This document shows, piece by piece, positions 5,199 through 63,038 of a stretch of 64,000 nt of DNA. The notes beneath the pieces are model-generated. The model made no database searches, was not told the DNA's origin, and was given only the letters and a program-made list of their open reading frames with translations. Positions within the stretch are counted from its first letter, which is position 1, and the number at the start of each line of letters is the position of its first letter. A program made the translations under genes and the position numbers. Source of the DNA: Betaproteobacteria bacterium (GTDB lineage: Bacteria > Pseudomonadota > Gammaproteobacteria > Burkholderiales > SG8-41); contig OMIN01000144.1 of assembly GCA_900299145.1 (NCBI GenBank), positions 1 through 64,000 of the forward strand. Reading direction: 5' to 3'.

Positions 5199-5484
5199 TC
5201 AAAGTTGGTTGTGCCTCTTGGCAAAATAGGTATTAGCTGATACACTCGACAGTCTTTGTAGTTGTAGCGCGTGGTGGAATTTTGGCGCGGTGTCCGTGGC
5301 AACGTTGCGCTGGAAGGATGAATCAGCCCGTACGGGCTCCAATACTGGTCTGATGCCTTGGGCGGTAAGTTAGCCCGCTGCCGGATCAAGTTGGGGAAGC
5401 GTCAAAGATGCTGGATACCTTTGATTTTATTGATATTTTTCCAGTGGTCTTTGTGCGACAGTTTTACTCTGGTGAGAAGCGAAC
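5199..5484 (+). promoter_or_regulatory. Gap between S10 and spc operons, probable spc promoter region
   Basis: This 286-nt gap is the largest in the ribosomal cluster and has no credible reading frame. In many proteobacteria the spc operon has its own promoter here, so that is my inference. I could not identify a convincing -35/-10 pair. The stretch ends with a degenerate copy of the window's AT-rich dispersed repeat (about 5412-5440), about 45 nt before the rplN start. No clear terminator is visible after rpsQ. Confidence 0.4.
5412..5440 (+). repeat. Dispersed AT-rich repeat, degenerate copy
   Basis: The second half matches the family well (TTTGATTTTATTG then ATATTTTT, one base shorter than consensus). 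The first half, GGATACC, is poorly matched. It sits upstream of rplN. Confidence 0.5.
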
Positions 5485-5853
5485 ATGATTCAGATGCAAT
5501 CCGTATTGGATGTGGCCGACAACACGGGCGCGCGCGCCGTGATGTGCATAAAGGTCTTGGGTGGCTCGAAGCGGCGCTATGCTGGCATCGGCGACGTCAT
5601 CAAGGTCAGCATCAAAGATGCGGCGCCTCGCGGGCGCGTCAAAAAGGGCGAGGTATACGACGCAGTGGTGGTGCGTACCGCGAAGGGTGTGCGTCGGGCC
5701 GACGGTTCGCTGGTTAAGTTCGATTCGAATGCCGCTGTGTTGTTGAACACCAAACTCGAGCCCATCGGCACGCGTATCTTCGGGCCGGTGACGCGTGAGT
5801 TGCGCACCGAGCGCTTCATGAAAATTGTGTCACTCGCCCCGGAAGTCATTTAA
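5485..5853 (+). CDS. rplN: 50S ribosomal protein L14
   Basis: Beta-barrel protein at the subunit interface. The 122-residue product starts [20 protein letters not shown] and carries the signature [26 protein letters not shown], with the C-terminus [16 protein letters not shown]. Standard length. It is the first gene of the spc operon. Confidence 0.97.
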
Positions 5854-5863
5854 GGAGCGTGGT

Positions 5864-6181
5864 ATGAAGAAAATTAAAAAAGGGGATGACGTCATCGTCA
5901 CCACGGGCCGCGATAACGGCAAGCGTGGCACGGTGTTGCGCTTGGTGGCCGATACGCACGTGGTGGTGGAGGGCGTCAACAAGGTCAAGAAGCATGAGCG
6001 CCCGAATCCAATGAAAAACACCCAGGGCGGCATAGTTGATAAAGAAATGCCGTTGCCTGTGTCCAACGTTGCCTTGTTTAACCCGGCGACAAAAAAGGCC
6101 GACCGCGTGGGCATCAAGGTTGTCGATGGTGGCAAGCGAGTCCGGTATTTCAAGTCCAATGGCGAAGTCATTGACGTATGA
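5864..6181 (+). CDS. rplX: 50S ribosomal protein L24
   Basis: Assembly-initiator protein with a KOW motif. The frame is open upstream into rplN, but the family start is the ATG at 5864, seven bases after AAGGAG. This gives 105 residues starting [20 protein letters not shown], with the KOW glycine in GKRGTVLRL. The stop overlaps the rplE ATG (ATGA). Confidence 0.96.
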
Positions 6182-6858
6182 GCGAACAAAAAGCAGACAA
6201 GAAGGTAAAGCCGGCGCGCGAGCCCAAGGGCAAGCCGTCCAATAAAAAAGGCGCGGATGCCGGTGACGCCGGTGATCAGCCGGTGGCCAAGCGCGCTTCC
6301 AGCGCGAAGCCGGCTGGCCCTGCGCGGTTGCATGCCTATTACCGCGATACCGTGGTCAAAGATTTGACGCAGAAATTCGGCTACAAATCCGTGATGCAGG
6401 TGCCGCGCCTGAACAAGATTGTTCTGAACATGGGAGTGGGCGAAGCGGTGGCAGATAAAAAGATCATGGATCATGCGGTGTCCGACATGACCAAGATTGC
6501 CGGGCAAAAGCCGCTGGTGACCAAGTCACGCAAGGCCATTGCGTCGTTCAAGATCCGCGAGAATTATCCGGTGGGATGCAAGGTCACGCTGCGCGGGTCG
6601 CGTATGTATGACTTTCTCGACCGGCTGGTGAACGTGGCAATGCCGCGTATTCGTGACTTCCGCGGCATTTCCGGACGCAGCTTTGACGGCATGGGTAATT
6701 ACAACATGGGCGTCAAGGAACAGATTATTTTCCCGGAAATCGAGTACGACAAAATCGACGCGATTCGCGGGATGAATATCACTATTTCCACTACGGCCAA
6801 GACGGATGACGAAGCGCGTGCCCTGCTGGCCGCTTTCAAGTTTCCGTTCAGAAATTAA
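6178..6858 (+). CDS. rplE: 50S ribosomal protein L5 with long basic N-terminal extension
   Basis: Central-protuberance protein that binds 5S rRNA. The L5 domain starts at about residue 50 ([13 protein letters not shown], then [18 protein letters not shown]) and runs to the C-terminal [14 protein letters not shown]. The product is 226 residues, against about 179 in the family. The extra 48 or so residues are Lys/Ala/Gly/Pro-rich, low-complexity and probably disordered. The ATG overlaps the rplX stop, so the long form is the one coupled to upstream translation. Confidence 0.95.
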
Positions 6859-6915
6859 GCGCCGAAATTCAGCGAATATTTTAGCGATCAAGCAGCGAGA
6901 AGGCCCGGAAAAACA

Positions 6916-7221
6916 ATGGCTAAACAATCGATCATCAATCGTAATGAGCAGCGCAAGGCAACCGTCAAGAAATTTGCCGCCAAGCGCAAGGCTTTGCAGG
7001 ATGCGGCAAACGATCAGTCGTTGTCGCCGGAAGAGCGTTACGAGGCGCGCCTCAAGTTGCAAAAGCTGCCGCGCAATGCGAGCCCGGTGCGCGTGCGTAA
7101 CCGTTGTGCGCTGACAGGGCGTCCGCGGGGCACCTTCCGCAAATTTGGTTTGGCTCGCGGCAAGCTGCGCGATATCGCGATGCGCGGGGAAATTCCCGGC
7201 ATTATCAAGGCCAGCTGGTAA
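6916..7221 (+). CDS. rpsN: 30S ribosomal protein S14, zinc-independent form
   Basis: Head protein of 101 residues, starting [20 protein letters not shown] and ending with the signature [27 protein letters not shown]...PGIIKASW. It has a single cysteine instead of the four-Cys ribbon of the short form, so it is the C-minus type typical of proteobacteria. It lies 57 nt after rplE; this gap contains GGCCCGGAAAAACA immediately before the start. Confidence 0.96.
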
Positions 7222-7276
7222 CAGTGCGAGCCATCCACGGGTAATGAAATAGGACCAGGAAGCAGGAGAAGATTGC

Positions 7277-7672: not shown

Positions 7673-7717
7673 TGAGTGTGATGAGCCTAACGGGAACGAA
7701 GGGAACGAGGTTCTGAC

Positions 7718-8251: not shown

Positions 8252-8274
8252 GTGGGTAAGGAGTCAAGTAAGCG

Positions 8275-8631: not shown

Positions 8632-8653
8632 AGCTCCAGTCCAGGATACGTTC

Positions 8654-9183: not shown

Positions 9184-9366
9184 ATGAGCGACACCAAGAA
9201 AATCAAGATACAGCTGGTGCGTAGTCTCATTGGCACCAAGGGCGATCACCGGCTGTGCGTGCGCGGATTGGGTCTGCGCCGTATTGGCCATACGATTGAA
9301 GTTATTGACACGCCGGCTAACCGCGGCATGATCAATAAAGTGTCGTACATGGTAAAAGTTGTTTAA
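9184..9366 (+). CDS. rpmD: 50S ribosomal protein L30
   Basis: Small ferredoxin-like-fold protein of 60 residues with the family core [28 protein letters not shown] and the C-terminus [13 protein letters not shown]. It starts 2 nt after rpsE. Its stop codon lies at the edge of a copy of the dispersed AT-rich repeat. Confidence 0.95.
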
Positions 9367-9386
9367 AAATAAATAGTTACGGTATT
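9361..9386 (-). repeat. Dispersed AT-rich repeat, inverted copy in the spc operon
   Basis: Read on the minus strand it begins GTAACTATTTATTTTTAAAC, which matches the first 16 or so positions of the family consensus closely. It fills the 22-nt gap between rpmD and rplO and replaces any recognisable ribosome binding site before the rplO ATG at 9389. Confidence 0.55.
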
Positions 9387-11699: not shown

Positions 11700-11727
11700 T
11701 AAATTATTGTTTAAAAACAAATAGTTA
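11700..11727 (-). repeat. Dispersed AT-rich repeat, inverted copy before rpsM
   Basis: Read on the minus strand it is CTAACTATTTGTTTTTAAAC followed by AATAATTT. The first 15 positions match the family at all but one or two bases. It lies 14 nt before the rpsM start. Confidence 0.6.
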
Positions 11728-11740
11728 GTGGAGTAATAGC

Positions 11741-14810: not shown

Positions 14811-14840
14811 GTAAGTATTTGTTTCAATTATATTTTTTAT
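14811..14840 (+). repeat. Dispersed AT-rich repeat
   Basis: GTAAGTATTTGTTTCAATTA followed by TATTTTTTAT. The first 14 bases are identical to the family consensus. It lies just after the rplQ terminator and overlaps the last codon of the convergent glycerate kinase gene. Confidence 0.8.
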
Positions 14841-16135
14841 GTGACGAGAATCACGCGAAAATCGTTCACATTAGTGCGCGTCGGGCCGGTTACCACCAGA
14901 TCATCCAGCGCGCTGAAAAAACCATACCCGTCGTTGATGTCGAGCTGCTTTGCGGCGCTGATGTTTTTTGCCGCCGCGCGTGCCAGGGCATCTGGCGTAA
15001 GAATCGCGCCGGCGTTGTTCTCCGAGCCATCAATGCCGTCAGTGTCGCAGGCGAGGGCATGCATGGCTGCGTCACCGCCAAGATCCAACGCCAGCGATAG
15101 CAAAAATTCCGTGCAACGCCCGCCGCGGCCTGTACCCCTGACGGTCACGGTGCACTCGCCGCCGGAGATCAGCGCTACCGGCGGCCGGAAGGGAGCAGCG
15201 TATTGTCGAATCTCGCGCGCCAGCGCACCGTAAACCTTCGCCACTTCGCGCGCTTCGCCGGTGACGGAATCGCCGAGGATCACCGGCTGCACGCCGTGCA
15301 ACTTGAAGTAAGCCGCTGCAGCCGCCAGAGATGCGTGTGCAGTGGCGATCACTTTGTTTTCCACGCGCTTGAAAATCCCGTCGCCAGGCTTGGGCGTCTC
15401 GGCGATTTCGCCCGCAACGCCCCGCTCGAGGTGGGTGGCGATGGCCTTCGGCGCTTTCACGCCGTGGCGCGCGATAACGTCCAGTGCATCCTGATACGTG
15501 CTGGTGTCAGGCGCGCACGGGCCGGAGGCAATATGCGTCGGATCGTCGCCGGTAACATCGGAAATCACCAACGCGGTCACCGGCGCGCGGCATGCTGCGG
15601 CAAGCCGACCACCCTGAATAGCTGACAAGTGCTTGCGCACTATGTTCATCTCTTGTATGGGTGTGCCTGACGTAAGTAATTGTTTTGTAATAGTTTTTAT
15701 GTCATCGATGCTGATGCCTTCGGCGGGCAGCGTAAGCAGGCTGGAGCCGCCACCGGACACCAGCACCAGCAGCCGGTCGCTGGCCGTCAACGCTTTCACG
15801 CGGCGCAGAATCTCGTGTGCGGCTTTTTCGCCCGCTTCGTCGGGCACCGGATGGCCGGCTTCGATGACTTTGATGCGGTTGGTCAATAGGCCATGCTGGT
15901 AGCGTGTAATCACCAGGCCGTCGAGCGGTGCATCGGCAGGCCAGTGTTGCTCAACGGCCAGCGCCATCGAGGCAGCGGCCTTGCCCGCGCCAACGACGAG
16001 TGCTTTAGCTTTACCCGGCGCGGGCGGCTCCGGCAAATGTGCACCGACGATTTTCAGCGGATCAGCCGCCGCCAGCGCGGCCTGAAAACTGCCGAGCAGC
16101 AATTCGCGCGGAGACAAAGCCGTTTTACCTTTCAT
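14837..16135 (-). CDS. Glycerate 2-kinase, GckA/TtuD (MOFRL) family
   Basis: Predicted to phosphorylate D-glycerate to 2-phosphoglycerate, linking glyoxylate, tartrate or serine breakdown to glycolysis. The 432-residue product has the N-terminal kinase domain with [12 protein letters not shown] near residue 48 and [10 protein letters not shown] at 125-134. A C-terminal MOFRL domain follows ([18 protein letters not shown], then [16 protein letters not shown]). The ATG overlaps the uvrA stop (ATGA), so it is co-transcribed downstream of uvrA. A repeat-like AT-rich patch falls in residues 145-154 without breaking the fold. Substrate specificity is inferred from family only. Confidence 0.9.
15672..15701 (+). 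repeat. Dispersed AT-rich repeat copy inside a coding region
   Basis: GTAAGTAATTGTTTTGTAAT then AGTTTTTATG lies antisense within the glycerate kinase gene and encodes the [10 protein letters not shown] segment. Against the consensus it keeps GTAAGTA, TTGTTTT and the T-rich tail. It is AT-rich against GC-rich surroundings. Confidence 0.6.
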
Positions 16136-19074
16136 TGCAGCACCGGTTTCAGATAACGTGCGGTGTGGCTTTGTGCGTGGCGCGCGACCTCTTCGGGCGT
16201 GCCTTCGATCAGAATATGTCCGCCGCCATTGCCGCCTTCCGGGCCGAGATCGATGATCCAGTCGGCAGTCTTGATTACGTCGAGATTGTGTTCAATCACC
16301 ACCACGGTGTTACCGTGATCGCGTAGCCGGTGCAGCACGTGCAGGAGCAAATCAATGTCGTGAAAATGCAGACCTGTGGTCGGCTCATCAAGGATGTAGA
16401 GCGTGCGGCCGGTATCGCGCTTGGACAGCTCCAGCGCGAGCTTTACGCGCTGCGCCTCGCCGCCGGAGAGCGTGATCGCGCTCTGGCCGAGCTTGATGTA
16501 ACCAAGGCCCACGTCGAGCAGCGTTTGCAGCTTGCGTGAAATCGCGGGCACGGCACTGAAAAACTCAGTGGCGTGTTCCACCGTCATGCCGAGCACATCG
16601 TTGATACTTTTGCCCTTGTAGAGGATTTGCAGCGTCTCGCGGTTGTAGCGCTTGCCCTGGCACACGTCGCACGGCACATAGACGTCGGGCAGAAAGTGCA
16701 TTTCCACCTTGAGCATGCCGTCGCCCTGACACGCCTCGCAACGCCCGCCCTTGACATTGAACGAGAAGCGTCCCGCGCCATAGCCGCGCTCGCGCGCCGC
16801 CGGTACACCTGCGAACAGGTCGCGGATAGGCGTGAACAGGCCCGTGTAAGTGGCCGGGTTGGAGCGAGGTGTGCGGCCGATGGGGCTTTGATCGACGTTG
16901 ACGACCTTGTCGAAAAATTCGAGCCCAGTGATGGCTTCATGTGGCGCGGGCTCAGCTGCACTGCCATACAAATGTTGTGCTGCGGCTGTGTAAAGCGTGT
17001 CGTTGATCAGCGTCGATTTGCCGGAACCGGACACACCGGTGACACACACAAACAGACCCACCGGTATGCCGACGGTCACATTCTTGAGATTGTTGCCAGT
17101 GGCGCCTTGAACCACGAGTTGGCGCTTATCGTTCACCGGGTGGCGCAGTGCTGGCACGGCAATTTTTCGCCGGCCCGACAGATACTGGCCAGTAAGCGAT
17201 TCAGCATGCGCGCTGACTTCGGCGGCCGTGCCCTCGGCAATCACCCGCCCGCCGTGGATGCCCGCGCCCAGTCCCATGTCGAGCACATGGTCGGCGTGCT
17301 TGATCGCTTCCTCGTCGTGTTCGACCACGATCACCGAGTTGCCGATGTCGCGCAGGCGTTTCAGCGTTTCGATGAGCCGCGTGTTATCGCGCTGATGCAG
17401 ACCGATGGACGGTTCATCGAGCACGTACATTACGCCGGTCAGGCCCGATCCGATTTGCGAGGCCAACCGTATGCGCTGTGCTTCGCCACCAGAAAGCGTG
17501 TCGGCGGCGCGGTCGAGCGACAGATAGTCGAGGCCCACGTTCACCAGAAATTGCAGGCGGTTGGAAATCTCATGCACGATCTTGTCGGCGATGGCGCGGC
17601 GCGCGCCGGCGACCTCCAGCCCGGTAAAAAAGGTCGAGGCTTGATCTAACGCCAAGTTGCTGATTTCATGTATGTTTTTATTTCCTACCGTGACGTGCCG
17701 CGCTTCGCGCCGTAAGCGCGTGCCGGCGCAGTCCGGGCAGGTTTTGGTGTTCAGATACTTGGCGAGCTCCTCGCGCACCAGCACGGAGTCGGTCTCGCGA
17801 TAACGCCGTTCGAGATTCGGCAGCACGCCTTCAAACGTGTGTTCACGCACGGTGGGCTTGCCACGCTCGCCAATGTAGGTGAAGGCGATTTTGGTCGAAC
17901 CCGAACCGTTGAGGATCAGATGCTTCACTTCATCGCTTAGCGAATGGTACGGCGCTTCCAGATCAAAGCCGTAGTGCTTGGCGAGGCTTTGCAGCATGTC
18001 GTAAAAAAACTGATTGCGCCGGTCCCAGCCTTTGATCGCGCCGGAGGCGAGTGAAAGATCGGGAAACGCCACCACGCGCTTCGGATCGTAAAAGCTGATG
18101 TGGCCGATGCCGTCGCAGCGCGGGCACGCGCCCAACGGATTGTTGAACGAGAACAGACGAGGTTCGAGTTCCGGCAGCGAATAGCTGCACACCGGACAGG
18201 CAAATTTGGCCGAGAAGAGATGCTCCTTGCCGCTATCCATTTCGACAGCCAGAGCGCGGCCTTCGGCATGGCGCAGTGCGGTTTCGAACGATTCCGCCAT
18301 GCGCTGTTTGGCTTCCTCACGCACGCGCAGCCGGTCGACGATGACATCGACTGTGTGTTTGAAATTCTTCTTGAGCTTGGGTAGCGCATCGATTTCGTAG
18401 ACCTGGCCGTCGATTCGTAAACGCGTGAAACCCTGCGCGCGCAGTTCGTCGAACAAATCGGTCTGCTCGCCCTTGCGGCCCGTGATGAGCGGCGCCACGA
18501 TCATCACGCGCGTGTCCGCGGGTAGAGTCAGCACATGATCGACCATCTGCGACACGGTTTGGGCCTGCAACGGCTTGCCGTGATCCGGGCAGTGTGGATC
18601 GCCCACGCGCGCGAACAAGAGGCGCAGGTAATCGTGGATTTCGGTGATGGTGCCGACGGTGGACCGCGGATTGTGACTGGTTGCTTTTTGCTCGATGGAA
18701 ATGGCAGGCGACAGGCCGTCGATCAAATCGACGTCGGGCTTTTCCATGATCTGCAAAAATTGCCGGGCGTAGGCCGACAGCGATTCGACATAGCGCCGCT
18801 GGCCCTCGGCGTAAAGCGTGTCGAAGGCGAGCGACGATTTGCCGCTACCCGACAGGCCGGTGATCACCACCAGCCGGTTGCGCGGCAAATCGACGTTGAT
18901 GTTCTTTAAATTATGCGTGCGTGCGCCGCGCACGCGGATGTATTCACGCGAGTCACGCGCGTTCTCTGGCGAGAACGCCGGCGCGCGCGTCTCGTTGCGC
19001 GAATCAATATCCGCCGCCACGCCCGGCAGGCGAATCACGTTGGGGCTGTTGCTACTGCTGTTACTGAGAGCCAC
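16132..19074 (-). CDS. uvrA: Excinuclease ABC subunit A
   Basis: Damage-recognition ATPase of nucleotide excision repair. It has two ABC ATPase halves, each with a Walker A (GLSGSGKSS and GVSGSGKST) and an LSGGEAQR signature. Zinc-binding pairs are visible (CPVC/CPRC in the first half, CEAC/CDVC in the second). The usual family start aligns just before [14 protein letters not shown], but no start codon exists there. I chose GTG at 19074 (980 residues), which leaves about 38 extra residues and lies 24 nt or so below a TATATT box. The alternative is ATG 19143, which has GAGGAAG upstream (1003 residues) but overlaps the divergent MFS start. Confidence 0.9.
17668..17690 (+). repeat. Possible degenerate copy of the dispersed repeat in uvrA
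   Basis: ATGTATGTTTTTATTTCCTA lies antisense inside uvrA. It keeps GTAT and GTTTTTATT of the consensus, with two bases missing between them. The match is weak and could be chance. Confidence 0.25.
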
Positions 19075-19141: not shown

Positions 19142-20407
19142 ATGTCTTCCTCTACCCGCATGAGTCCGCTGGAGTTGCGGGCCAGCCTCGCGCTCGCCGG
19201 CGTGTTCGGGTTGCGGCTCTTTGGCATGTTCGTGATCCTGCCGGTATTCGCGATTTACGCGGAAACGCTGCCCGGTGGCGCCAATCTCACGATGGCGGGC
19301 ATTGCCATCGGTGCTTATGGGCTGACACAGGCGATTTTGCAGATCCCGTTTGGCTGGATGTCGGATCGTTATGGCCGCAAGCCGGTGATATACGGCGGCC
19401 TCATTTTGTTTGCGGTGGGCAGCTTTGTTGCCGCTGTGGCGCCGAATATCCATGTCGTGATCGTGGGGCGCGTGCTGCAGGGCGCGGGTGCGATTTCAGC
19501 GGCGGTGATGGCGCTGGCGGCTGATCTGACACGCGAGGAGAACCGCACCAAGTCGATGGCGATGATTGGCTCCACCATTGGGCTGGTGTTTGCGATGTCT
19601 CTGGCAGCCGCGCCGTGGCTTAATCAATTGATCGGCGTGCCGGGCATTTTTGCACTGACCGGCGTGCTGGCGATTGCCGCCATGGGGGTGGTTTGGCGCA
19701 TTGTGCCGGCCAGCCCCCGGGTGGTTGAAGCCCCGGCGGCGCGCGCCTCGAATCTGATGGGCGATTTGAAAAGCGTGTTGGGCGACGCGCAATTGTTGCG
19801 CCTGAACTGGGGCATATTTGCCTTGCACGCGGTGCTGATGGCCCTGTTCATCGCGGTGCCGTTCGCATTGCGCGACGCCGGCATGCCGTTGAATCAGCAC
19901 TGGAAAGTCTATTTGCCGGTGATGCTGGGTTCTTTTGTGCTGATGCTGCCGGCGGTGATGGGCGCGCACGTGCCGGGGCGGCTAAAGCGCTGGTTCGTGG
20001 CGGCGGTGGTGCTGCTGTTGCTGGTGCAAGGGGCGATGCCGTGGATGTTTGGCGGTGTGTTTTATATCTCTTTGTTTTTATTAATATTTTTCACGCCATT
20101 TAATGTGCTCGAAGCGATGCTGCCATCGCTGGTGTCGCGCATCGCACCGCCGCAACTCAAGGGCGCGGCCATCGGCGTTTACAGCAGCGTACAGTTTTTC
20201 GGGGCGTTCGTGGGGTCAGCGGCAGGCGGGTTTTTGTATGGCCGCTGGGGCGTGACGGGGATTGTTGTGCCGTGCGCTGTGTTGCTGGCAATCTGGCTTA
20301 TACTCGCGCTGGGCATGCGCGAGCCGCCGCCGCGTGGCGGCGCAAGCGGCAACGCCATCGCGGGTAGCAGCGCGGCGCCCACGGTGGCGAGCGAGCCGGC
20401 GCGATAA
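19142..20407 (+). CDS. Major facilitator superfamily transporter
   Basis: Inner-membrane secondary transporter, probably a drug/metabolite exporter of unknown substrate. The 421-residue product has 12 hydrophobic segments and the MFS loop 2-3 signature [16 protein letters not shown] at about residues 74-89. Starts at 19142 or 19160 are both possible; the second ([14 protein letters not shown]) fits homologues equally well. It lies between uvrA and ssb, an arrangement I know from Burkholderiales. A TM segment near the end of the first third of the C-terminal half is encoded by an AT-rich patch resembling the dispersed repeat. Confidence 0.88.
20061..20091 (+). repeat. Dispersed-repeat-like patch in an MFS transmembrane segment
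   Basis: TTTGTTTTTATT followed by AATATTTTT matches the core and tail of the family with one base missing. It encodes ISLFLLIFF within a transmembrane helix. Hydrophobic codons alone could produce part of this, so confidence is moderate. Confidence 0.5.
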
Positions 20408-21102: not shown

Positions 21103-21477
21103 ATGCCGATTTACGAATATCGCTGCGATAGCTGCGGCTTCCAAAAGGAATTCATCCAGCGCATGAGTGATGCGCGCCTCACGCAATGCCCTGAGTGCAA
21201 GCAGGAGACATTTAACAAGATGGTGACGGCGGCCGGCTTTCAATTAAAAGGCGGCGGCTGGTACGTGACGGACTTCAAGAATAGCGGTGGCAACACGGGC
21301 TCGGCAAAAAAAACTGAAGAAAAACAAACAGATACGAGCGGAAAGTCCGAGTCTGCCAAAAGCGAATCCAAGGATTCCAGCGCTTCGGCGAGTAGCACTT
21401 TCGGATCGTCCGGCAGCAGTACGACCGCGGCTTCTACGCCTGCTGCCAGCACGGCAGCCACACCCAGCAGCAGTTGA
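21103..21477 (+). CDS. FmdB family zinc-ribbon protein
   Basis: The 124-residue product begins MPIYEYRCDSCG and has two CxxC pairs (CDSC at about 8-11, CPEC at about 31-34), the FmdB-type zinc ribbon. After residue 65 it is Ser/Thr/Ala/Lys-rich and probably disordered. Function of the family is not firmly known. It precedes a DUF502 protein and aspS in an order typical of Burkholderiales. Confidence 0.88.
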   Translation: MPIYEYRCDSCGFQKEFIQRMSDARLTQCPECKQETFNKMVTAAGFQLKGGGWYVTDFKNSGGNTGSAKKTEEKQTDTSGKSESAKSESKDSSASASSTFGSSGSSTTAASTPAASTAATPSSS

Positions 21478-24227: not shown

Positions 24228-24644
24228 GTGAAAATAATATTCAATAAATTCAAATACTTACTGTTGATCTTGGGGCTGATGGCGCTGGTGGGCTCGGCGG
24301 TAGCGCAGCGCGATACTTCGCCAGCGCCTGGGGCGTCTGGTGTCACACGCGAGCGCGTGCAACTCAGTCTGGCCGATGTCAGTGCCAAGGCATTGCCGCC
24401 GGAAGCGCGCGAGACCTTGAAGCTGATCGAAAAAGGCGGCCCGTATCCGTATGACCGCGACGGCATTGTGTTCGGCAATTTCGAGAAGCGGCTGCCGATC
24501 AAGGACCGAGGCTACTATCAGGAATTTACCGTTAAAACGCCGGGCGTCAGTCATCGCGGCGCGCGGCGCATTGTCGCAGGTAAGGGCGGCGAAAAGTACT
24601 ACAGCGACGACCACTATAAAACCTTCAAGCGGATCGTGCCATGA
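24228..24644 (+). CDS. Secreted barnase-like guanyl ribonuclease
   Basis: Predicted extracytoplasmic ribonuclease of the N1/T1/barnase fold. The 138-residue product has a signal peptide (MKIIFNKFKYLLLILGLMAL, cleavage probably after AVAQ at about residue 27) and a C-terminal domain at 75-138. Three catalytic positions can be placed by analogy with barnase: Glu99 in QEFTV, Arg113/114 in GARRIV, and His129 in DDHYKTF. Start is GTG at 24228. The next gene, overlapping by 4 nt, is a barstar-type inhibitor. The signal-peptide codons coincide with an inverted copy of the dispersed AT-rich repeat. Whether it is a toxin or a nutritional RNase is unknown. Confidence 0.88.
   Translation: MKIIFNKFKYLLLILGLMALVGSAVAQRDTSPAPGASGVTRERVQLSLADVSAKALPPEARETLKLIEKGGPYPYDRDGIVFGNFEKRLPIKDRGYYQEFTVKTPGVSHRGARRIVAGKGGEKYYSDDHYKTFKRIVP
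24231..24261 (-). repeat. Dispersed AT-rich repeat, inverted, encoding a signal peptide
   Basis: Read on the minus strand: GTAAGTATTTGAATTTATTG then AATATTATTTT. Only about three positions differ from the consensus. On the plus strand it encodes KIIFNKFKYL, the start of the barnase-like protein's signal peptide. Confidence 0.85.
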
Positions 24645-27773: not shown

Positions 27774-27802
27774 ATAAGTATTTGTTTTTATTGAGTATTT
27801 TT
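27774..27802 (+). repeat. Dispersed AT-rich repeat
   Basis: ATAAGTATTTGTTTTTATTG then AGTATTTTT; two or three differences from consensus. It lies 4 nt after the stop of the upstream gene and 35 nt before the ABC exporter start. Confidence 0.9.
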
Positions 27803-32319: not shown

Positions 32320-32350
32320 GTAACCCTGTATTTTTAAGGGATATTTTAAG
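32320..32350 (+). repeat. Possible degenerate copy of the dispersed repeat
   Basis: GTAACCCTGTATTTTTAAGG then GATATTTTAAG. It resembles the variant at 44850 (TAAC, TTG/CTG, TTTTTAA, GGG, T-rich tail). It ends 7 nt before the ribosome binding site of the next gene. Confidence 0.4.
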
Positions 32351-34413: not shown

Positions 34414-35550
34414 ATGGCCATCTATCTTATTGTTTTATTGTGTCTTTTCAACCATATCTGTTTCAGCGGCTGCCGCATGGTGATGTCGCTGTATGCGCTG
34501 GAGCTAGGGGCGAATCCGTTTGCCATTGGCGTCCTGATGGCGCTGTTTGCGATATGTCCGCTGTTTTTCGCCATCTATGCCGGGCGGCTGGCCGACCGGC
34601 TGGGACCGCGCGTGCCGATGATGGTGGGCACGGCGGGCATGGGCGCCGCACTGGCATTGCCGCCGTTATTTCCGGGACTGACCGCGCTGTATGTGTCCGC
34701 ATTGCTCACTGGTTCAGCGTTCCATTTCTTTTTTGTGTCGGTGCACGGCACGGCCGGCGGCGTGGGCGGGCCGGAGCATCGCGCACGCAATTATTCGCTG
34801 GTGAGTCTGGGTTTTTCGGCGGCCGGGCTGATCGGGCCGTTTACCGCGGGCTTGTCCATCGACCATCTGGGCCATCTGAAGGCATTTACGTTGCTCGCCT
34901 CGTGTACCGCTGTGCCGTTTTTGCTGATGTGGTTGAAGCCGGGCTTTCTGCCCAAGGCCGCGAAGTCCGGCGGCGACAAGTCCGGCCAACGGGTGCTGGA
35001 CCTGTGGCGCATGCCGAAACTGCGTGGCGCGTTCATCGCCAGTGGCATATTGTCGGCGGCGTGGGACCTGTTCCAGTTTTACTTTCCGATTTATGGCCAT
35101 TCGCTGGGGCTGTCAGCGTCGGTGATCGGCATAGTGTTGTCGACGTTTGCACTGGCAACCTTCATCGTGCGTCTGATTTTGCCGGCTTGGGCAAAGCGAT
35201 CCGGCGAAGCGCGCATCCTGATTTACGGCGTGTTCATTGCCGCGTTTTCATTCGTGCTGTTTCCGCTGTTTGCCAACCCGTGGCTGCTGGCCGGGGCAGC
35301 GTTTGTTCTCGGTCTGGGTGTGGGCAGTGGCCAGCCGATGTCGATGTCGCTGATTTACGCGCTGTCGCCGCCGGGCCGCTCATCCGAAGCAGCGGGTGTG
35401 CGCGTGATGGTCAACAACGTCGCACACCTTTTCATACCGCTGTTTTTCGGCAGTGTGGGCACCGCGTTTGGCTTTGCGCCGGTGTTTGTCTCCAACGCCT
35501 TTATGCTGGCGGGCGGCGGGTTATTCATGCAACGCAGACACCGGATGTAA
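34414..35550 (+). CDS. Major facilitator superfamily transporter
   Basis: Inner-membrane transporter of 378 residues with 12 hydrophobic segments. It starts MAIYLIVLLCLFNHICFSG, and the loop 2-3 motif is visible as IYAGRLADRLGPR. The frame is open further upstream into egtD, but ATG 34414 places the first helix at the N-terminus. It follows egtD by 26 nt and precedes an ABC permease by 18 nt, so the three may form an operon. Substrate unknown; a role in hercynine or ergothioneine export is only a guess from position. Confidence 0.85.
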   Translation: MAIYLIVLLCLFNHICFSGCRMVMSLYALELGANPFAIGVLMALFAICPLFFAIYAGRLADRLGPRVPMMVGTAGMGAALALPPLFPGLTALYVSALLTGSAFHFFFVSVHGTAGGVGGPEHRARNYSLVSLGFSAAGLIGPFTAGLSIDHLGHLKAFTLLASCTAVPFLLMWLKPGFLPKAAKSGGDKSGQRVLDLWRMPKLRGAFIASGILSAAWDLFQFYFPIYGHSLGLSASVIGIVLSTFALATFIVRLILPAWAKRSGEARILIYGVFIAAFSFVLFPLFANPWLLAGAAFVLGLGVGSGQPMSMSLIYALSPPGRSSEAAGVRVMVNNVAHLFIPLFFGSVGTAFGFAPVFVSNAFMLAGGGLFMQRRHRM

Positions 35551-36756: not shown

Positions 36757-36785
36757 GTAAGTATTTGTTTTTATTAATTTTTTAT
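36757..36785 (+). repeat. Dispersed AT-rich repeat between convergent genes
   Basis: GTAAGTATTTGTTTTTATTA then ATTTTTTAT; the first 19 bases equal the consensus. It overlaps the last codon of the convergent Nudix gene. Confidence 0.9.
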
Positions 36786-41565: not shown

Positions 41566-41596
41566 TAAAAAAAGTCCATAAAAACAAATACAAAAA
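41566..41596 (-). repeat. Dispersed AT-rich repeat, inverted copy
   Basis: Read on the minus strand: TTTGTATTTGTTTTTATGG then ACTTTTTTT. It keeps GTATTTGTTTTTAT of the consensus exactly. It begins 5 nt after the small gene's stop. Confidence 0.65.
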
Positions 41597-42780: not shown

Positions 42781-44388
42781 ATGAAAATAGCGATTGCACA
42801 ACTGAATTACACGGTGGGCGATATCGACGGCAACGCCGCGAAAATCGCCGATGCCGCCGCGCGTGCGCGCGAAGGCGGTGCTTCATTGTTGCTGACTACA
42901 GAGCTGGCGATTTGCGGCTATTCGCCGGAAGACCTGCTGCTACGTGATGATTTTTGTGATGCTTGCGCGGCGGCGCTGGCGGCGCTCGCCATCAAGACGA
43001 ACGGTATAACGCTGGTGGTTGGCCATCCGCATCGCGACGGCCGCAAACGTTACAACGCGGCTTCGGTGCTGCGCGGCGGGAAAATCATCGCGACGTATCT
43101 CAAGCGCGAGTTGCCGAATTACAAGGAGTTTGACGAGAAGCGCTATTTTCATTCGGGCAGCGCGCCGTGCGTGTTCGAGCACGAAGGGTTGCGGCTGGGG
43201 GTGAATATCTGCGAAGACGTGTGGGAAGAGCCCGCCGCCATTGCCGCACGGCAGGCGGGCGCGCAACTGTTGCTGGTGTTGAACGGCTCGCCGTATTACA
43301 TGAACAAGCAGCAAACGCGCTATGAAGTCGTGCGCGACCGCGCGGCGGAAACCGGCATTCCGGTCATCTTCGCCAATCAAGTTGGCGGGCAGGATGAGCT
43401 GGTGTTTGACGGCGCGTCGTTTGCCATGGAGGCGTCGGGTAAGCTAGCTTACCTCGCGCCGTCATTTACGGAAGTGATTGATTTCATTGAGATTTTAAAT
43501 GGCGTGCCGCAGCCCGGCAACATCGCGCCGGCGCAGCCGCTGGAAGCCGAGGTGTATCAGGCGCTGGTGTTGGGCGTGCGCGATTACGTTACCAAAAACG
43601 GTTTTCCCGGTGTGCTGCTCGGTTTGTCGGGCGGCATTGATTCGGCGTTGACGCTGGCGGTGGCGGCCGATGCACTCGGCCCGGCGCGCGTGAAGGCCGT
43701 GATGATGCCGTCGCAATACACGGCGAGCATGAGCCGCGAAGATGCCTGCGCCGAAGCCGAAGCGCTCAAGGTGCGTTACACCGAAATCGCCATCAAGCCG
43801 CTGTACGATCTCTTCGTGCAGACGCTGGCGGGGGAATTCAAGGGCCTGAAAGAAGACACTACCGAGGAAAATCTGCAATCGCGGATACGCGGCGTGCTGC
43901 TGATGGCGATGTCCAACAAGACCGGCGCGATTGTGCTGACCACCGGCAACAAAAGCGAAATGGGCACGGGATACGCCACGCTCTACGGCGACATGGCCGG
44001 CGGCTTCGGCGTGCTGAAGGACATCAACAAAATGATGGTGTACCGGTTGTCGAATTACCGCAACAGCCTGTCGCCGGTGATTCCGCAACGCGTGATCGAC
44101 CGCCCGCCGTCGGCGGAATTGCGGCCGGATCAAAAGGATCAGGACAGCCTGCCGCCGTACGACGTGCTCGACGCCATCATGGCGGCGTACGTTGAGCAGG
44201 ATCAAAGCCCGCGAGACATCATTGCCCAGGGTTACGCCCGCGCGGACGTGGAGCGCGTGGTGCGGCTGCTCAGAGTTTCCGAGTACAAGCGCCGCCAGTC
44301 GCCGGTGGGCATTCGCGTCACCGCGCGCGGGTTCGGCAAGGACTGGCGTTACCCGATTACCAACAAGTTTCGGCCGCCTTTTGAATAA
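42781..44388 (+). CDS. nadE: Glutamine-dependent NAD+ synthetase
   Basis: Amidates nicotinic acid adenine dinucleotide to NAD using glutamine-derived ammonia. The 535-residue product fuses an N-terminal nitrilase-type glutaminase with a C-terminal ATP-pyrophosphatase synthetase. The glutaminase Glu/Lys/Cys triad is visible in TTELAICGY, KRELPNYKEF and VNICEDVWEEP; the synthetase P-loop is LSGGIDSAL, with LTTGNKSEMGTGY. It precedes glnB, an order known in Burkholderiales. Start ATG 42781 lies about 106 nt from the divergent Bug gene. Confidence 0.95.
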   Translation: MKIAIAQLNYTVGDIDGNAAKIADAAARAREGGASLLLTTELAICGYSPEDLLLRDDFCDACAAALAALAIKTNGITLVVGHPHRDGRKRYNAASVLRGGKIIATYLKRELPNYKEFDEKRYFHSGSAPCVFEHEGLRLGVNICEDVWEEPAAIAARQAGAQLLLVLNGSPYYMNKQQTRYEVVRDRAAETGIPVIFANQVGGQDELVFDGASFAMEASGKLAYLAPSFTEVIDFIEILNGVPQPGNIAPAQPLEAEVYQALVLGVRDYVTKNGFPGVLLGLSGGIDSALTLAVAADALGPARVKAVMMPSQYTASMSREDACAEAEALKVRYTEIAIKPLYDLFVQTLAGEFKGLKEDTTEENLQSRIRGVLLMAMSNKTGAIVLTTGNKSEMGTGYATLYGDMAGGFGVLKDINKMMVYRLSNYRNSLSPVIPQRVIDRPPSAELRPDQKDQDSLPPYDVLDAIMAAYVEQDQSPRDIIAQGYARADVERVVRLLRVSEYKRRQSPVGIRVTARGFGKDWRYPITNKFRPPFE

Positions 44389-44849: not shown

Positions 44850-44880
44850 TTAACTAATTGTTTTTAAAGGGTAATTTTTG
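44850..44880 (+). repeat. Dispersed AT-rich repeat, variant copy
   Basis: TTAACTAATTGTTTTTAAAG then GGTAATTTTTG. It shares TAACTA, TTGTTTTTA and the T-rich tail with other copies. It lies between glnB and the foreign-looking DUF6928 gene. Confidence 0.55.
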
Positions 44881-48227: not shown

Positions 48228-48257
48228 ATAAGTATTTGTTTTTATTGAATATTTTTT
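48228..48257 (+). repeat. Dispersed AT-rich repeat
   Basis: ATAAGTATTTGTTTTTATTG then AATATTTTTTAATG. Apart from the first base it equals the consensus. It lies between the Crp/Fnr gene and the FecR-domain gene. Confidence 0.95.
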
Positions 48258-51608: not shown

Positions 51609-52148
51609 ATGAACCCCAAGTATTTGTTTTTATTGAGTATTTTATGCGTCTCCGCGAAGCCGCTGACAGCCGCCGAGATTTACCGCTGGGTGGATGAGCG
51701 TGGCGTTACGCAATACAGCGAGAAGCCGCCGGAGAATCGTCCGTCGAAACTGGTGAATGCGCGTCCGGCAGCGGCGTCCGTGGATGCCGAAGGCAAGCTG
51801 CTGGAACCGCCCAAAGCCGTAACGGCGCCAACTGCAGGCGCCCAGGCGAAGCCTGCAACACCCCCCGCCCCGCAAACCGCGCTGGTGCCACCGGCTGGCT
51901 CCGCGCCAGCAACGCCTGCCGTTCGCGGCATGGATTTCGGCGTCTACATGCATTTGCGCCGGGGCATGACCGAAGGCGAGGTGCTGCTGCGTGCGGGCAA
52001 ACCCGATCAGGAGACCGTCGAGGGCGGCCGGAACTTTGTGGTGAAATCGCTGTATTACTATCCGACCCTGTCCGATCCGTTTATCACGGTGATCACGCTG
52101 CGTGGTGGACGTGTGGCCGAACTTGAACGCAAACAAAAAACCTTTTAA
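51609..52148 (+). CDS. DUF4124-domain exported protein
   Basis: The 179-residue product begins MNPKYLFLLSILCVSAKPLT, a signal peptide whose core KYLFLLSIL is encoded by a copy of the dispersed repeat. The DUF4124 domain follows at about 23-60 (EIYRWVDERGVTQYSEKPPE). A Pro/Ala-rich stretch and a C-terminal region with HLRRGMTEGEVLLRAGKPD, similar to small outer-membrane assembly folds, complete it. Function unknown. Its stop shares a base with the lolA start. Confidence 0.85.
   Translation: MNPKYLFLLSILCVSAKPLTAAEIYRWVDERGVTQYSEKPPENRPSKLVNARPAAASVDAEGKLLEPPKAVTAPTAGAQAKPATPPAPQTALVPPAGSAPATPAVRGMDFGVYMHLRRGMTEGEVLLRAGKPDQETVEGGRNFVVKSLYYYPTLSDPFITVITLRGGRVAELERKQKTF
51618..51645 (+). repeat. 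Dispersed AT-rich repeat serving as signal-peptide codons
   Basis: AAGTATTTGTTTTTATTGAG then TATTTTATG. It is read in frame as K-Y-L-F-L-L-S-I-L. One substitution and one missing T relative to consensus. Confidence 0.92.
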
Positions 52149-52831: not shown

Positions 52832-54175
52832 GTGAACGACCTCTTCGGCAAGCGCGAACCGCGCGCACCGCTCGCCGAGCAGTTGCGCCCCAAGACCCTG
52901 GATGATGTCGCCGGGCAAACGCACCTCGTCGGCCCCGGCAAGCCGCTGCGACTTGCGTTCGAGAGCAAAAAGCCGCATTCGATGATTTTGTGGGGGCCGC
53001 CGGGCGTGGGCAAAACCACGCTGGCGCGGCTGATGGCCGATGCGTTTGACGCGGAGTTCATCGCCATCAGCGCGGTGTTTTCCGGGGTGAAGGAAATACG
53101 CGAGGCGGTGACGCGCGCTGAACTCACGTTGCAGCAAAGCGGCCGCCATACGCTGCTGTTCGTCGACGAGGTGCATCGCTTTAACAAGTCGCAGCAGGAT
53201 GCGTTCCTGCCGTACGTCGAGCGCGGGCTGGTGACTTTCATTGGCGCCACCACCGAAAACCCCTCGTTTGAATTGAACAACGCGTTGTTGTCGCGCGCTG
53301 CGGTGTATGTGTTGCAACCGCTGGGCGAAGCGGATCTCGCTGCGTTGTCGCAACGGGCGTTCGGTAAGTATCTGTTTTTAAATAGTATTTCTGATGAGGC
53401 TCGCGAGCGCATCGTGGGTTATGCGGATGGCGATGCGCGCCGTTTGCTGAATCTGATTGAGCAGCTGGCGGATGCTGCGGAGGAAACCAACCGCAGTGAA
53501 ATCGATGCCGCGTTCGTCAAGCAAACGCTGACGCAAAGCCTGCGCCGCTTCGACAAGGGCGGCGATCAGTTCTACGACCAGATTTCAGCGCTGCATAAAA
53601 GCGTGCGCGGCTCGTCGCCCGATGCTGCACTCTATTGGATGGTGCGCATGCTCGACGGCGGCGCCGATCCGCTTTATCTCGGGCGGCGCATTGTGCGCAT
53701 GGCGAGCGAAGACATCGGCCTGGCCGATCCGCGCGCACTGCGCATGGCGCTTGATGCGTGTGAAACCTATGAGCGTCTCGGGTCACCCGAAGGCGAACTC
53801 GCACTCGCGGAAGTGGTGATTTATCTGGCGGTCGCGCCGAAAAGCAACGCGGCTTATACCGCCTATAACGCCGCGCGCGCGCTGTTGCGAGAAGACAAAT
53901 CGCGTCCGGTGCCGGAACACTTGCGTAACGCGCCGACGAAGTTGATGAAGGAATTGGGCTACGGCGCGAATTACCGTTACGCGCACGACGAAGCAGGCGC
54001 GTACGCCGCCGGTGAAAATTATTTTCCTGACGGTATGGCGCCGCCGAGGTTTTACGAGCCGACGGAATTCGGGCTGGAGTCAAAAATACGCGAGAAGCTG
54101 GAATACCTGCGTTCGCTCGATCGCAAGGCCGGGAACGTGGCTAAAGCTGGCAAGGATCGTAAAAATAGTCAATAA
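52832..54175 (+). CDS. rarA: Replication-associated recombination protein A
   Basis: Clamp-loader-like AAA+ ATPase acting at stalled forks. The 447-residue product has Walker A GPPGVGKTT, Walker B LLFVDEVHRF, sensor 1 GATTENPSFE and the C-terminal tetramerisation domain (SALHKSVRGSSPDAALYWM). Start is GTG 52832. Two copies of the dispersed repeat touch it: an in-frame one at 53364-53395, encoding KYLFLNSIS in the variable loop before the DEARERI helix, and an inverted one over its last codons. Confidence 0.94.
   Translation: MNDLFGKREPRAPLAEQLRPKTLDDVAGQTHLVGPGKPLRLAFESKKPHSMILWGPPGVGKTTLARLMADAFDAEFIAISAVFSGVKEIREAVTRAELTLQQSGRHTLLFVDEVHRFNKSQQDAFLPYVERGLVTFIGATTENPSFELNNALLSRAAVYVLQPLGEADLAALSQRAFGKYLFLNSISDEARERIVGYADGDARRLLNLIEQLADAAEETNRSEIDAAFVKQTLTQSLRRFDKGGDQFYDQISALHKSVRGSSPDAALYWMVRMLDGGADPLYLGRRIVRMASEDIGLADPRALRMALDACETYERLGSPEGELALAEVVIYLAVAPKSNAAYTAYNAARALLREDKSRPVPEHLRNAPTKLMKELGYGANYRYAHDEAGAYAAGENYFPDGMAPPRFYEPTEFGLESKIREKLEYLRSLDRKAGNVAKAGKDRKNSQ
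53364..53395 (+). repeat. Dispersed AT-rich repeat inside rarA
   Basis: GGTAAGTATCTGTTTTTAAA then TAGTATTTCTGATG. It matches the consensus at about 22 of 29 positions, against GC-rich flanks, and keeps the frame. Confidence 0.8.
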
Positions 54176-54189
54176 ATACAGATAGTTAC
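54161..54189 (-). repeat. Dispersed AT-rich repeat, inverted, over the rarA 3' end
   Basis: Read on the minus strand: GTAACTATCTGTATTTATTG then ACTATTTTT. It covers the last four codons and the stop of rarA, and lies 15 nt from the convergent MFS stop. Confidence 0.85.
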
Positions 54190-57153: not shown

Positions 57154-57184
57154 TATAAGTATTTGTTTTTATTGAATAATTTAT
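57154..57184 (+). repeat. Dispersed AT-rich repeat
   Basis: TATAAGTATTTGTTTTTATT then GAATAATTTAT. It runs directly into the start codon of the GIY-YIG gene. Confidence 0.93.
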
Positions 57185-60232: not shown

Positions 60233-60263
60233 GTTTGCGCCGAACCCCTGGCTCAGTGCCGCC

Positions 60264-60755: not shown

Positions 60756-60806
60756 AAGTAAGTTGAAAATGAGTTGAAAGCGAGTTGAAGGTGAATTGAA
60801 AGCGAT
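60752..60806 (+). repeat. Five tandem 11-bp units between the flavodoxin and lactonase genes
   Basis: Units are TTGAAAGTAAG, TTGAAAATGAG, TTGAAAGCGAG, TTGAAGGTGAA and TTGAAAGCGAT: five direct repeats of exactly 11 bp. The first contains the flavodoxin stop codon. A dispersed AT-rich repeat follows 6 nt later. Confidence 0.85.
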
Positions 60807-60812
60807 TATGAT

Positions 60813-60842
60813 GTAAGTATCTGTTTTTATTGATTTTTTATT
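60813..60842 (+). repeat. Dispersed AT-rich repeat
   Basis: GTAAGTATCTGTTTTTATTG then ATTTTTTATT. Two or three differences from consensus. It ends 23 nt before the lactonase ATG. Confidence 0.92.
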
Positions 60843-60864
60843 GATGTGATTCAGAGGGAAAACC

Positions 60865-61974
60865 ATGCAGCCGCGACTGATGGCGTACGTGTCCTGCCTT
60901 TACAGCCAGGAAGTTCTCGCTTTCGAGTTTGACGCGGCGAGCGGCAAACCGCGGCTCGCGCAAAGCCAGATCGTCGGCGGCGCGGCGGGGCCGATGGCGT
61001 TAAGCCCGGATCAACGCACCCTCTACGTGGGGTTGCGTTCGGAGCCGTATCGCGTAGCGAGTTTGGCGATTGACGCGCAAAGCGGGCGACTGACGGTGTT
61101 GGGTGAGGCGCCTGCGGCGGGGAGCATGCCGTATCTGTCTGTTGACCGCACGGGACGTTTTTTGTTGACGGTGACCAACCCGTGGCACGGTCCGCAGGGG
61201 CTTGGCAGTCAGATCAGCGTGAGCGCCATTGTTACGAAGGCTGGCAATGGCGTAGTGCAGGCGCCGCATCAGGTGCTGCCGATGCGCAAGAAGGCGCACT
61301 GTGTGTGGGCCACGCCGTCGAATCGCCACGTCTACGCCACCAGTTGTGATGAAGACGTGATTGTCTGTCACGCTTTCGATGCGGAAACCGGCCGGCTGTC
61401 AGAAGACTCGGCGACGTATGACGTGGAACAGGGCGCTGGGCCGCGTCATATGACTTTTCATCCCAACGGGCGGTTTTTGTATTTGCTCAATGAATACGAT
61501 GGCTCGCTGTATGCCTTTGCCCACGATGCGCAAAGCGGACGGCTGGACCGGCTGCAAATTTGCAGCGTGTGGTCGCGCCCGGCGCCCGGAAAGTCGGTGC
61601 GGGCGTCTGATATCCATGTGACGCCGGACGGCAGGTTTCTTTATGCGGCGGAGCGTTGCTCGAATACGCTGGCGGCGTTCAGTATTGATGCCGCGAGCGG
61701 ACGGTTGACGTTCATTGCGTCGTATCCGGCCGAAAACGAGCCGCGCGGATTTCATATGGATCCCACGGGCCGCTACGTATTCGTGGTAGGCCGCCTGTCG
61801 GACGGCGTGACGGTGTATGCCATTGATGCAGCGAGCGGTGCGCTTACCGTGGTTGCGCGGCAACCGGTAGCCCCGGCGCCACCGGCGCAGGGCTTTACCG
61901 ACCTGCCGCCGATGAAGCCGGAAGAGTGTGGCGTGCGCGGCCCGAATTGGGTGGAGTTTGTCCGGCTCGGCTGA
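60865..61974 (+). CDS. Lactonase-type seven-bladed beta-propeller protein
   Basis: The 369-residue product has about seven repeats with SGRL-type turns (AASGKPRLAQ, AQSGRLTVLG, AETGRLSED, AQSGRLDRLQ, AASGRLTFIA, AASGALTVVA). It matches the PGL/lactonase family that hydrolyses sugar lactones. No signal peptide is seen. It could be a 6-phosphogluconolactonase or another lactonase; substrate is unknown. Confidence 0.85.
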   Translation: MQPRLMAYVSCLYSQEVLAFEFDAASGKPRLAQSQIVGGAAGPMALSPDQRTLYVGLRSEPYRVASLAIDAQSGRLTVLGEAPAAGSMPYLSVDRTGRFLLTVTNPWHGPQGLGSQISVSAIVTKAGNGVVQAPHQVLPMRKKAHCVWATPSNRHVYATSCDEDVIVCHAFDAETGRLSEDSATYDVEQGAGPRHMTFHPNGRFLYLLNEYDGSLYAFAHDAQSGRLDRLQICSVWSRPAPGKSVRASDIHVTPDGRFLYAAERCSNTLAAFSIDAASGRLTFIASYPAENEPRGFHMDPTGRYVFVVGRLSDGVTVYAIDAASGALTVVARQPVAPAPPAQGFTDLPPMKPEECGVRGPNWVEFVRLG

Positions 61975-62010
61975 CGCTTTTGCGGCCGGCCCAGTAGAAA
62001 GGAAGCCACA

Positions 62011-62967
62011 TTGAAGATCAGGGGGGCGGGCGTTGTTTTAGCCGTGCTGCTGAGTGCAGTGCCCGGCGGCTTTGTCGCGGCGCAGAATTTCCCCGCCAGG
62101 CTGGTGCGCATCGTCTCCAGTGCACCGGGCAATCTGTCGGACATCATGGCGCGCATCGTCGCGCAGGAATTGACCAAGGCGTGGGGCCAGCCTGTGATTG
62201 TGGAAAACCGCGCCAACGCGATGATCGCCCATGAAGCCGTGGCGAAAGCCGTACCCGACGGTTATACGCTGATGTTCGTCAGTGATTCCTTCGTGGGCTC
62301 GCAGTTCATGGGCGATGCGCGCTTTCGCCCGCTTGAGGAATTCAGCGCAGTGTCCCTGGTGGCCCTGTCGCCGAGCGTACTGGTGGTCAGTTCCACCTTG
62401 CCGGTGAATTCCGTCAAGGCATTGGTGGCGCTGGCGAAGGCACGTCCGGGGCAACTCAATTTTGGCTCCAGCACCAACGGTTCCACATCCCACACGGCGA
62501 TGGAGCTGTTCAATGCGATGGCGGGCGTGAAGATCGTACGGGTGGCGTACCGCGGCAATGCACAGGCGATCAGCGCCGTGATAGGCGGCGAAGTACAGGT
62601 GGCGATGCAGACGGTGCCGATTGCAACGCCGCAAATCAAGGCGGGAAAGGTCAAGGCGCTCGCCGTCACCAGTCCGCAGCCTTCCGCGCTCGCGCCGGGC
62701 CTGCCGACGGTTGCGGCGACACTGCCGGGTTTCGAGGCGCAATCGCTGCTGGGAGTGGTCGCGCCCACCGGCACGCCGGGGCCGGTCGTCAGTCAGATTC
62801 ACCAAGACATTGCGCGTGCGGTGCGCGGTGCGGAAGTGCGCGAGCGCATCATTGCCCTGGGCGCGCAGCCGGTGGGCAACGCGCCCGAGGAATTCACCGC
62901 GGTGCTTAAAATGGCGATTGGCCGGCTGGACAAACTCATCCGGCAAACCGGTCTGAAGCTCGACTAG
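62011..62967 (+). CDS. Bug/TctC-family periplasmic binding protein
   Basis: The 318-residue product has a signal peptide (GAGVVLAVLLSAVPGGFVAA), then FPARLVRIVSSAPGNLSDIM, VIVENRANAMIAHEAVAKA and VPDGYTLMFVSDSFV. Start is TTG at 62011 with AAAGGAAG upstream. It follows the lactonase by 36 nt. Confidence 0.88.
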   Translation: MKIRGAGVVLAVLLSAVPGGFVAAQNFPARLVRIVSSAPGNLSDIMARIVAQELTKAWGQPVIVENRANAMIAHEAVAKAVPDGYTLMFVSDSFVGSQFMGDARFRPLEEFSAVSLVALSPSVLVVSSTLPVNSVKALVALAKARPGQLNFGSSTNGSTSHTAMELFNAMAGVKIVRVAYRGNAQAISAVIGGEVQVAMQTVPIATPQIKAGKVKALAVTSPQPSALAPGLPTVAATLPGFEAQSLLGVVAPTGTPGPVVSQIHQDIARAVRGAEVRERIIALGAQPVGNAPEEFTAVLKMAIGRLDKLIRQTGLKLD

Positions 62968-63007
62968 CGTGGGCGTGCAATCTGTTCGGGTATTATAGGA
63001 GCGTTGA

Positions 63008-63038
63008 TTTAAGTATATGAATTAATTGATTATTTTTA
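63008..63038 (+). repeat. Dispersed AT-rich repeat, diverged copy
   Basis: TTTAAGTATATGAATTAATT then GATTATTTTTA. It keeps TAAGTAT, ATTGAT and the T-rich tail. It lies 36 nt before the AmiD-like start. Confidence 0.6.

Follow-up and report, generated by a model that had tools for sequence, protein, structure and literature searches.

We analyzed the first 64,000 nucleotides of contig OMIN01000144.1 (the window), from the genome of a Betaproteobacteria bacterium (GCA_900299145.1, here G000), which carry many copies of a dispersed AT-rich repeat of about 29 bp. The most economical explanation, and on the sequence comparisons a highly probable one, is that the repeat serves as a DNA uptake signal in natural transformation, in a lineage that apparently belongs to neither of the two families with known uptake signals, the Pasteurellaceae and the Neisseriaceae. 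The copies are abundant and evenly spaced, show no orientation preference, favor intergenic DNA and within genes arose by substitution. The word has a phased architecture, is restricted to a clade, and is nearly absent from one member of that clade, G009. Somewhat less firmly, we regard it as likely that the signal evolved independently in a Burkholderiales family represented here by genomes from environmental sequencing, converged on the Haemophilus design of a core with two phased AT tracts and formed dialects across at least three genera, with G009 as a natural loss experiment.

Abundance and architecture of the repeat

A weight matrix was trained on 464 kb of G000, consisting of the window and 20 stretches of 20 kb. 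In these 464 kb, 158 sites reach a score of 20 and 143 a score of 24, compared with 5 and 1 in the reversed sequence. The density is about one per 2.9 kb, which extrapolates to about 1,900 copies in the 5.51-Mb genome. A 16-base probe (TATTTGTTTTTATTGA, up to 2 mismatches) matches the whole genome 383 times in forward and 373 times in reverse orientation; the reversed control gives 0 and 3. Both searches (756 versus 3 genome-wide, 158 versus 5 in 464 kb) thus find the large excess of one word on both strands that characterizes uptake signals.

The repeat had been noticed in a preliminary description of the window. It proved to be real, with a strong excess over shuffled and reversed controls. 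Allowing up to 3 mismatches, the 29-mer proposed there is found 4 times in the window and never in 100 shuffles, and the matrix scan suggested as a check gave the excess of 158 over 5 in the same genome. The count of about 18 good and three or four degenerate copies agrees with the matrix, which finds 18 in the window at a score of at least 30, 22 at 24, 24 at 20 and 28 at 12. The estimate of one copy per 3 kb holds across the 464 kb, and all 12 copies named by coordinate had been placed to within 2 bases. The 24 copies scoring at least 20 are listed here with strand and matrix score.

396..424, minus: copy, score 26.7; three aligned relatives score 27
5413..5441, plus: intergenic copy, score 26.9; absent with a gap in 4 of 4 aligned relatives
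9352..9380, minus: copy overlapping the end of a small called gene, score 31.9
11700..11728, minus: intergenic copy, score 40.4
14811..14839, plus: copy at a gene end, score 39.8; alignment gap in 4 of 6 relatives
15672..15700, plus: copy in a gene, score 31.7; 7 of 7 relatives gap-free
17652..17680, plus: weak copy in a gene, score 21.5; 8 of 8 relatives gap-free
20064..20092, plus: copy in a gene, score 37.9; 9 of 9 relatives gap-free
21307..21335, minus: copy in a gene, score 32.5; 11 of 12 relatives gap-free
24233..24261, minus: copy within the opening codons of a called gene (24228-24644, plus), score 40.6; 12 of 12 relatives gap-free, scoring 27 to 46
27774..27802, plus: intergenic copy, score 46.9; three relatives have a site of similar length without the motif
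32320..32348, plus: weak intergenic copy, score 24.4
34422..34450, plus: weak copy within the opening codons of a called gene, score 21.5; 2 of 2 relatives gap-free
36757..36785, plus: copy, score 47.0
41567..41595, minus: copy, score 32.7
43470..43498, plus: copy in a gene, score 27.9
44850..44878, plus: copy, score 36.2
48228..48256, plus: best copy, score 49.3; 1 mismatch to the unit of the preliminary description
51616..51644, plus: copy, score 41.6
53364..53392, plus: copy in a gene, score 36.7
54161..54189, minus: copy, score 40.5
57155..57183, plus: copy, score 47.1
60813..60841, plus: copy, score 45.4
63009..63037, plus: copy, score 38.4

The 29-bp matrix consensus is TAA[G/C]TATTTG[T/A]TTT[T/A]ATTGA[A/T]T[A/T]TTTTT. 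Information peaks at TAA (positions 2-4), at a TTGTTTT-like block (positions 10-15) and at TTTT (around positions 24-27), with the centers of the second and third blocks roughly 12-13 bases apart. Conservation dies out within a few bases beyond the 29 bp, and there is no longer common unit. Two sub-variants described earlier reduce to one degenerate position, position 5, which is G in 84, C in 49 and A in 8 of the 142 copies scoring at least 24; a raw tally of this position against positions 17-19 gives no sign of accompanying differences. At position 12, T outnumbers A in G000 (109 to 33) and in G018 (12 to 5), and small samples have mostly A in G019 (10 A, 4 T) and G001 (5 A, 3 T). Because the preference differs between genomes, the motif may have dialects. 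Sites with 0, 1, 2, 3 and 4 mismatches to a 20-base form of the word number 15, 34, 30, 22 and 23.

Placement, spacing and origin of the copies

Genes were called on the 464 kb with a simple purpose-made caller, giving 458 genes and 87% coding sequence. Among the 143 sites scoring at least 24, 91 are intergenic, 20 lie within 50 bases of a gene start, 7 are near a gene end, 20 are mid-gene and 5 are at the edges of stretches. Copies had been reported both between and inside genes; both kinds exist, with those in genes accounting for only 47 of the 138 classified sites against the 87% of the sequence that is coding. The T-run at one end and the 91 of 138 classified sites that are intergenic could suggest a transcription signal, such as a terminator, a promoter element or a motif of untranslated regions. 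Orientation, however, is random relative to flanking tandem genes, with 31 copies along the gene direction and 30 against it. Copies inside genes also occur in both orientations, and only one opposite-strand pair within 120 bp is found in 464 kb. A role in transcription is disfavored to the point of being barely credible.

The two strands hold 76 and 82 matrix sites, and copy orientation has no link to GC skew in the 464 kb (74 versus 84, p 0.47). The comparison of orientation with replication proposed in the preliminary description, run by way of GC skew, finds no association, and a replication-oriented word was rejected. Strand counts vary by contig, being 17/7 in the window and 13/27 on contig C90, and neighboring copies are on the same strand in 80 cases and on opposite strands in 73. 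In another genome, G012, the probe counts are 24 forward and 56 reverse, and the matrix gives 25/34 in 400 kb.

The 153 gaps between neighboring sites have a mean of 2.9 kb and a coefficient of variation of 0.59, with 2.0% under 500 bp. In 2000 runs of a null with matched genic and intergenic numbers, the mean coefficient was 1.10 and the lowest 0.84; with one site per intergenic gap, 2000 runs gave a mean of 0.95 and a lowest value of 0.71. The observed value lies below every run of both nulls, so the copies are more evenly spaced than simulated. Smaller samples, which have no nulls of their own, give 0.42 in G004, 0.34 in G019, 0.77 in G018 and 0.66 in G002. The lack of orientation preference, the intergenic preference and the spacing more regular than random are all properties of uptake signals.

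We then aligned 13 window sites of score at least 20, lying within 396 to 34450, with 2-12 rows each from same-genus relatives that are about 67-85% identical to the window in long matches. Six sites are wholly inside called genes (15672, 17652, 20064, 21307, 24233 and 34422). There, 49 of 50 relative rows cross the 29 columns without a gap; the sole gapped row, G006 at 21307, has one 3-base gap. The motif match in relatives at the aligned sites is graded, from the full motif down to none. Gap-free alignments with graded matches indicate that the in-gene copies arose by substitution and not by insertion. Of the roles offered in the preliminary description, an uptake-like signal is favored and a replicative miniature element is contradicted at these in-gene sites; a site for a nucleoid or partition protein is unlikely, and would not alone account for the near-absence of the motif in G009.

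Outside genes the evidence is mixed, and the point substitution typical of uptake signals is seen at the in-gene sites. At 27774, three relatives have an intergenic site of similar length without the motif. A stricter automatic count, covering the 17 of 157 own sites with a spanning alignment and also counting gaps within 15 bases on either side, found 19 rows without and 14 with gaps in genes, compared with 1 and 27 elsewhere. Since length varies freely outside genes, the gapped sites at 5413 and 14811 are compatible with insertion without demonstrating it. Such an origin, by a miniature mobile element or otherwise, would fit those two sites (gapped in 4 of 4 relatives and in 4 of 6, respectively) and the variation in copy number between relatives. 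It is nonetheless very improbable, given the 49 of 50 gap-free in-gene rows, the graded partial matches, and the lack of a common unit beyond 29 bp with flanking conservation gone in a few bases. A miniature inverted-repeat transposable element or other mobile repeat was rejected on the gap-free in-gene sites and the unconserved flanks.

Distribution of the repeat and of transformation genes

We surveyed 74 genomes of the family with the probe TATTTGWTTTTATTGA, allowing up to 1 mismatch. Between 19 and 509 matches per genome are found in 13 of 14 genomes of g1, in the single g6 genome and in all 21 of g7. Three g8 genomes have 1 to 12 matches each, and the 35 genomes of g2, g3, g4, g5 and g9 have 0 to 3 each. 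The exception in g1 is G009, with 2. Among 24 genomes from other families of the order, the T form of the probe has no match in 22 and has 1 and 2 in the other two. The exact 20-mer occurs in at least 107 stretches of public genome contigs; among the matches listed, almost all come from metagenome-assembled genomes (MAGs) with titles such as Burkholderiales or Betaproteobacteria, and single matches also occur in a few unrelated genomes. A scan of viral_contigs found 12 contigs with one exact 20-mer apiece. Judging from the MAG titles and the absence of the Neisseriaceae word, the host family would not be Neisseriaceae. Several motif-bearing MAGs (CAMBGJ, CAMDLH, CAMCYP and others) carry the title Bordetella parapertussis, which is apparently a naming error of the public databases.

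An rpoB tree was built from 22 genomes; 6 of 30 had no rpoB match, G007 (a fragment) and G013 (in three pieces) were left out, and the row for G017 is one piece of a frame containing a stop. The g6 genome and g1, including G009, form a clade with 100/99 support. G009 stands beside other g1 rows, with their fork at 88/76, and the motif label needs 3 changes on the tree. The place of g7 is not settled by support. Other words are overrepresented in motif-less genomes, namely AATGGATTCC and CGGGAATGAC in G021 (L195-L199) and TCAATCCTCA and ACCAGTCACG in G015 (L200-L204); these are perhaps interspersed repeats of other kinds. In G019 (stretches L175-L179), ACCCGTTCAC is enriched, with 15 copies against 0.2 expected.

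PilQ, ComEC and DprA have roles in the transformation pathway. ComEC (PF03772) is matched in 68 of the 74 family genomes, the six without a match being G009, G062, G027, G087, G092 and G093, and in 34 of 35 motif carriers. G009, which is 97% complete, is the only one of the 14 g1 genomes without a ComEC match. DprA is matched in 19 of 20 genomes tested, the exception again being G009. The pilus secretin PilQ is matched in all 20, including G009. In G000, the gene order is lolC, lolD, an ion-channel-like gene, a DNA glycosylase gene and a gene resembling a domain-of-unknown-function (DUF) family, followed by comEC (TIGR00361). On contig C49 of G009 (L274 5303-10452), lolC, lolD and the glycosylase gene are followed by a relA-like gene, and between lolC and the relA-like gene there is no comEC, channel gene or DUF-like gene. 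Genes of this locus other than comEC were recognized by eye. GspH-type minor pilins have no match in G009, nor in the carriers G008 (62% complete) and G011 (84% complete), and do not track cleanly with the motif.

A clade-specific site of a chromosome-organizing or segregation protein, kept at regular intervals by selection, is the main rival to an uptake signal. It would leave the near-absence of the repeat in G009, where ComEC and DprA have no match, unexplained. The copies also lack the strand asymmetry with GC skew seen for Chi or for the FtsK-orienting polar sequences (KOPS), and the probe counts among g1 carriers differ more than tenfold (37 to 509). The even spacing, intergenic preference, AT-rich phased tracts and in situ origin would all suit such a site, and we consider it unlikely but worth naming.

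Within the 464 kb, neighboring sites are at most 12.1 kb apart (G000 contig C98, 59658-71725). This longest gap holds two serine recombinases (by Pfam), which lie between two separate fragments of one YifB-family gene, and the splitting element, of about 5.7 kb (C98, L155:1-7100), also contains a ParB-like gene and a nuclease-like gene by eye. The absence of the motif fits foreign DNA without the word. The other motif-free stretches over 6 kb have ordinary-looking genes where inspected, suggesting that most such gaps are not islands. The YifB family is that of ComM, a helicase linked to transformation.

Several observations weigh against an uptake signal. The consensus is softer than that described for classical uptake signals, close opposite-strand pairs, a feature of both USS and DUS (the Pasteurellaceae and Neisseriaceae signals), are nearly absent, and aligned relatives lack the motif with a gap at intergenic 5413 (4 of 4) and at gene-end 14811 (4 of 6). 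ComEC does not predict the motif, as 31 of 35 genomes of motif-less genera have a match; conversely, the carrier G062, which is 91% complete, has none. G009 retains a ComEA-type protein, and its GC content is 48%, whereas the other g1 genomes sampled have 55-60%. A 148-kb sample of G009 contains 4 sites with a score of at least 20. The joint loss of the motif with ComEC and DprA is a single event in one genome and, like the rest of the genome-level evidence, is correlational. With its yifB/comM-family gene interrupted, G000 itself may be impaired in transformation at present.

Three of the four G009 sites lie at the AT-rich end of a single contig (35-44% GC) and could be remnants or chance matches. 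That end, on contig C87 (L257 12900-14729), is very AT-rich and has three degraded motif-like sites together with a short tandem repeat of a AATAAACCCC-type unit.

Proposed mechanism and comparison with known systems

As an uptake signal, the word would be bound by a predicted cell-surface receptor, probably one of the type IV pilus minor pilins, which would contact both the core TAA[G/C]TATTTG and the pair of phased T-rich tracts. DNA fragments bearing the word would be drawn through PilQ and then passed inward by ComEC, with DprA assisting their recombination. Better-matching fragments would be taken up more often, and recombination would in this way build and keep copies by point substitution, a molecular drive without insertion. 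We infer binding, uptake, the identity of the receptor and the direction of cause from the genomic patterns described. If the proposal is right, a third, unrelated lineage has the same design, which would show that self-tagging through transformation has evolved repeatedly. The finding would also offer an outside comparison for finding uptake receptors and open natural transformation to testing in bacteria that are known only by their DNA.

A search of the literature, which covered few subscription journals, found no description of this word or of a Burkholderiales uptake signal outside the Neisseriaceae. Chi, KOPS and similar words have hundreds to thousands of short copies per chromosome, and Chi and KOPS are strand-biased with replication. 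The repeat resembles them in its many short chromosome-wide copies but has no link to GC skew. Neither core of the uptake signal sequence (USS) is enriched in the 464 kb, with 4 copies of AAGTGCGGT against 18 in the reversed sequence and 3 copies of ACAAGCGGT against 13. For the DNA uptake sequence (DUS) GCCGTCTGAA, a word around a CTG core, the 10-mer is found 0 times and the 9-mer once in 464 kb. The known USS and DUS words were thus rejected as the identity of the repeat.

Like the Neisseriaceae DUS, whose receptor is ComP, the repeat is a self-word with many copies in either orientation, and it may likewise differ in dialect from lineage to lineage. Its 29-bp unit differs from the DUS, which the relevant passages of two papers describe as about 10 bp without flanking motifs (PMC1626085, PMC3630211). 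The first of these also describes USS and DUS as unbiased in orientation, spaced somewhat more regularly than random and commoner in non-coding DNA, and USS copies as having arisen by mutation and not by insertion (PMC1626085). For the Haemophilus uptake receptor, an excerpt of PMC12616744 still speaks of a prediction.

Compared with the USS, the repeat has a different core word, a lower density (about one per 2.9 kb against about one per kb), a softer consensus and almost no close inverted pairs, and its carriers are Burkholderiales by their MAG titles. The architecture is nevertheless similar. The Pasteurellaceae USS is described in the same sections as a core with two AT segments in rough helical phase, and its third segment is centered about 12 bases from the second (PMC1626085). 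Like the H. influenzae USS (AAGTGCGGT plus two AT segments), our word has a core followed on the same side by two AT-rich segments about a helical turn apart, so that its information profile agrees with the arrangement of two phased AT-rich segments 3' of the core given there. In H. ducreyi, where competence genes are broken, the USS is reported in those sections to be weakened (PMC1626085). The repeat is scarce in one genome, G009, where ComEC and DprA have no match, and it shares with the USS the absence of orientation bias, a distribution more even than random, the preference for intergenic DNA and, at the in-gene sites, an origin by point mutation.

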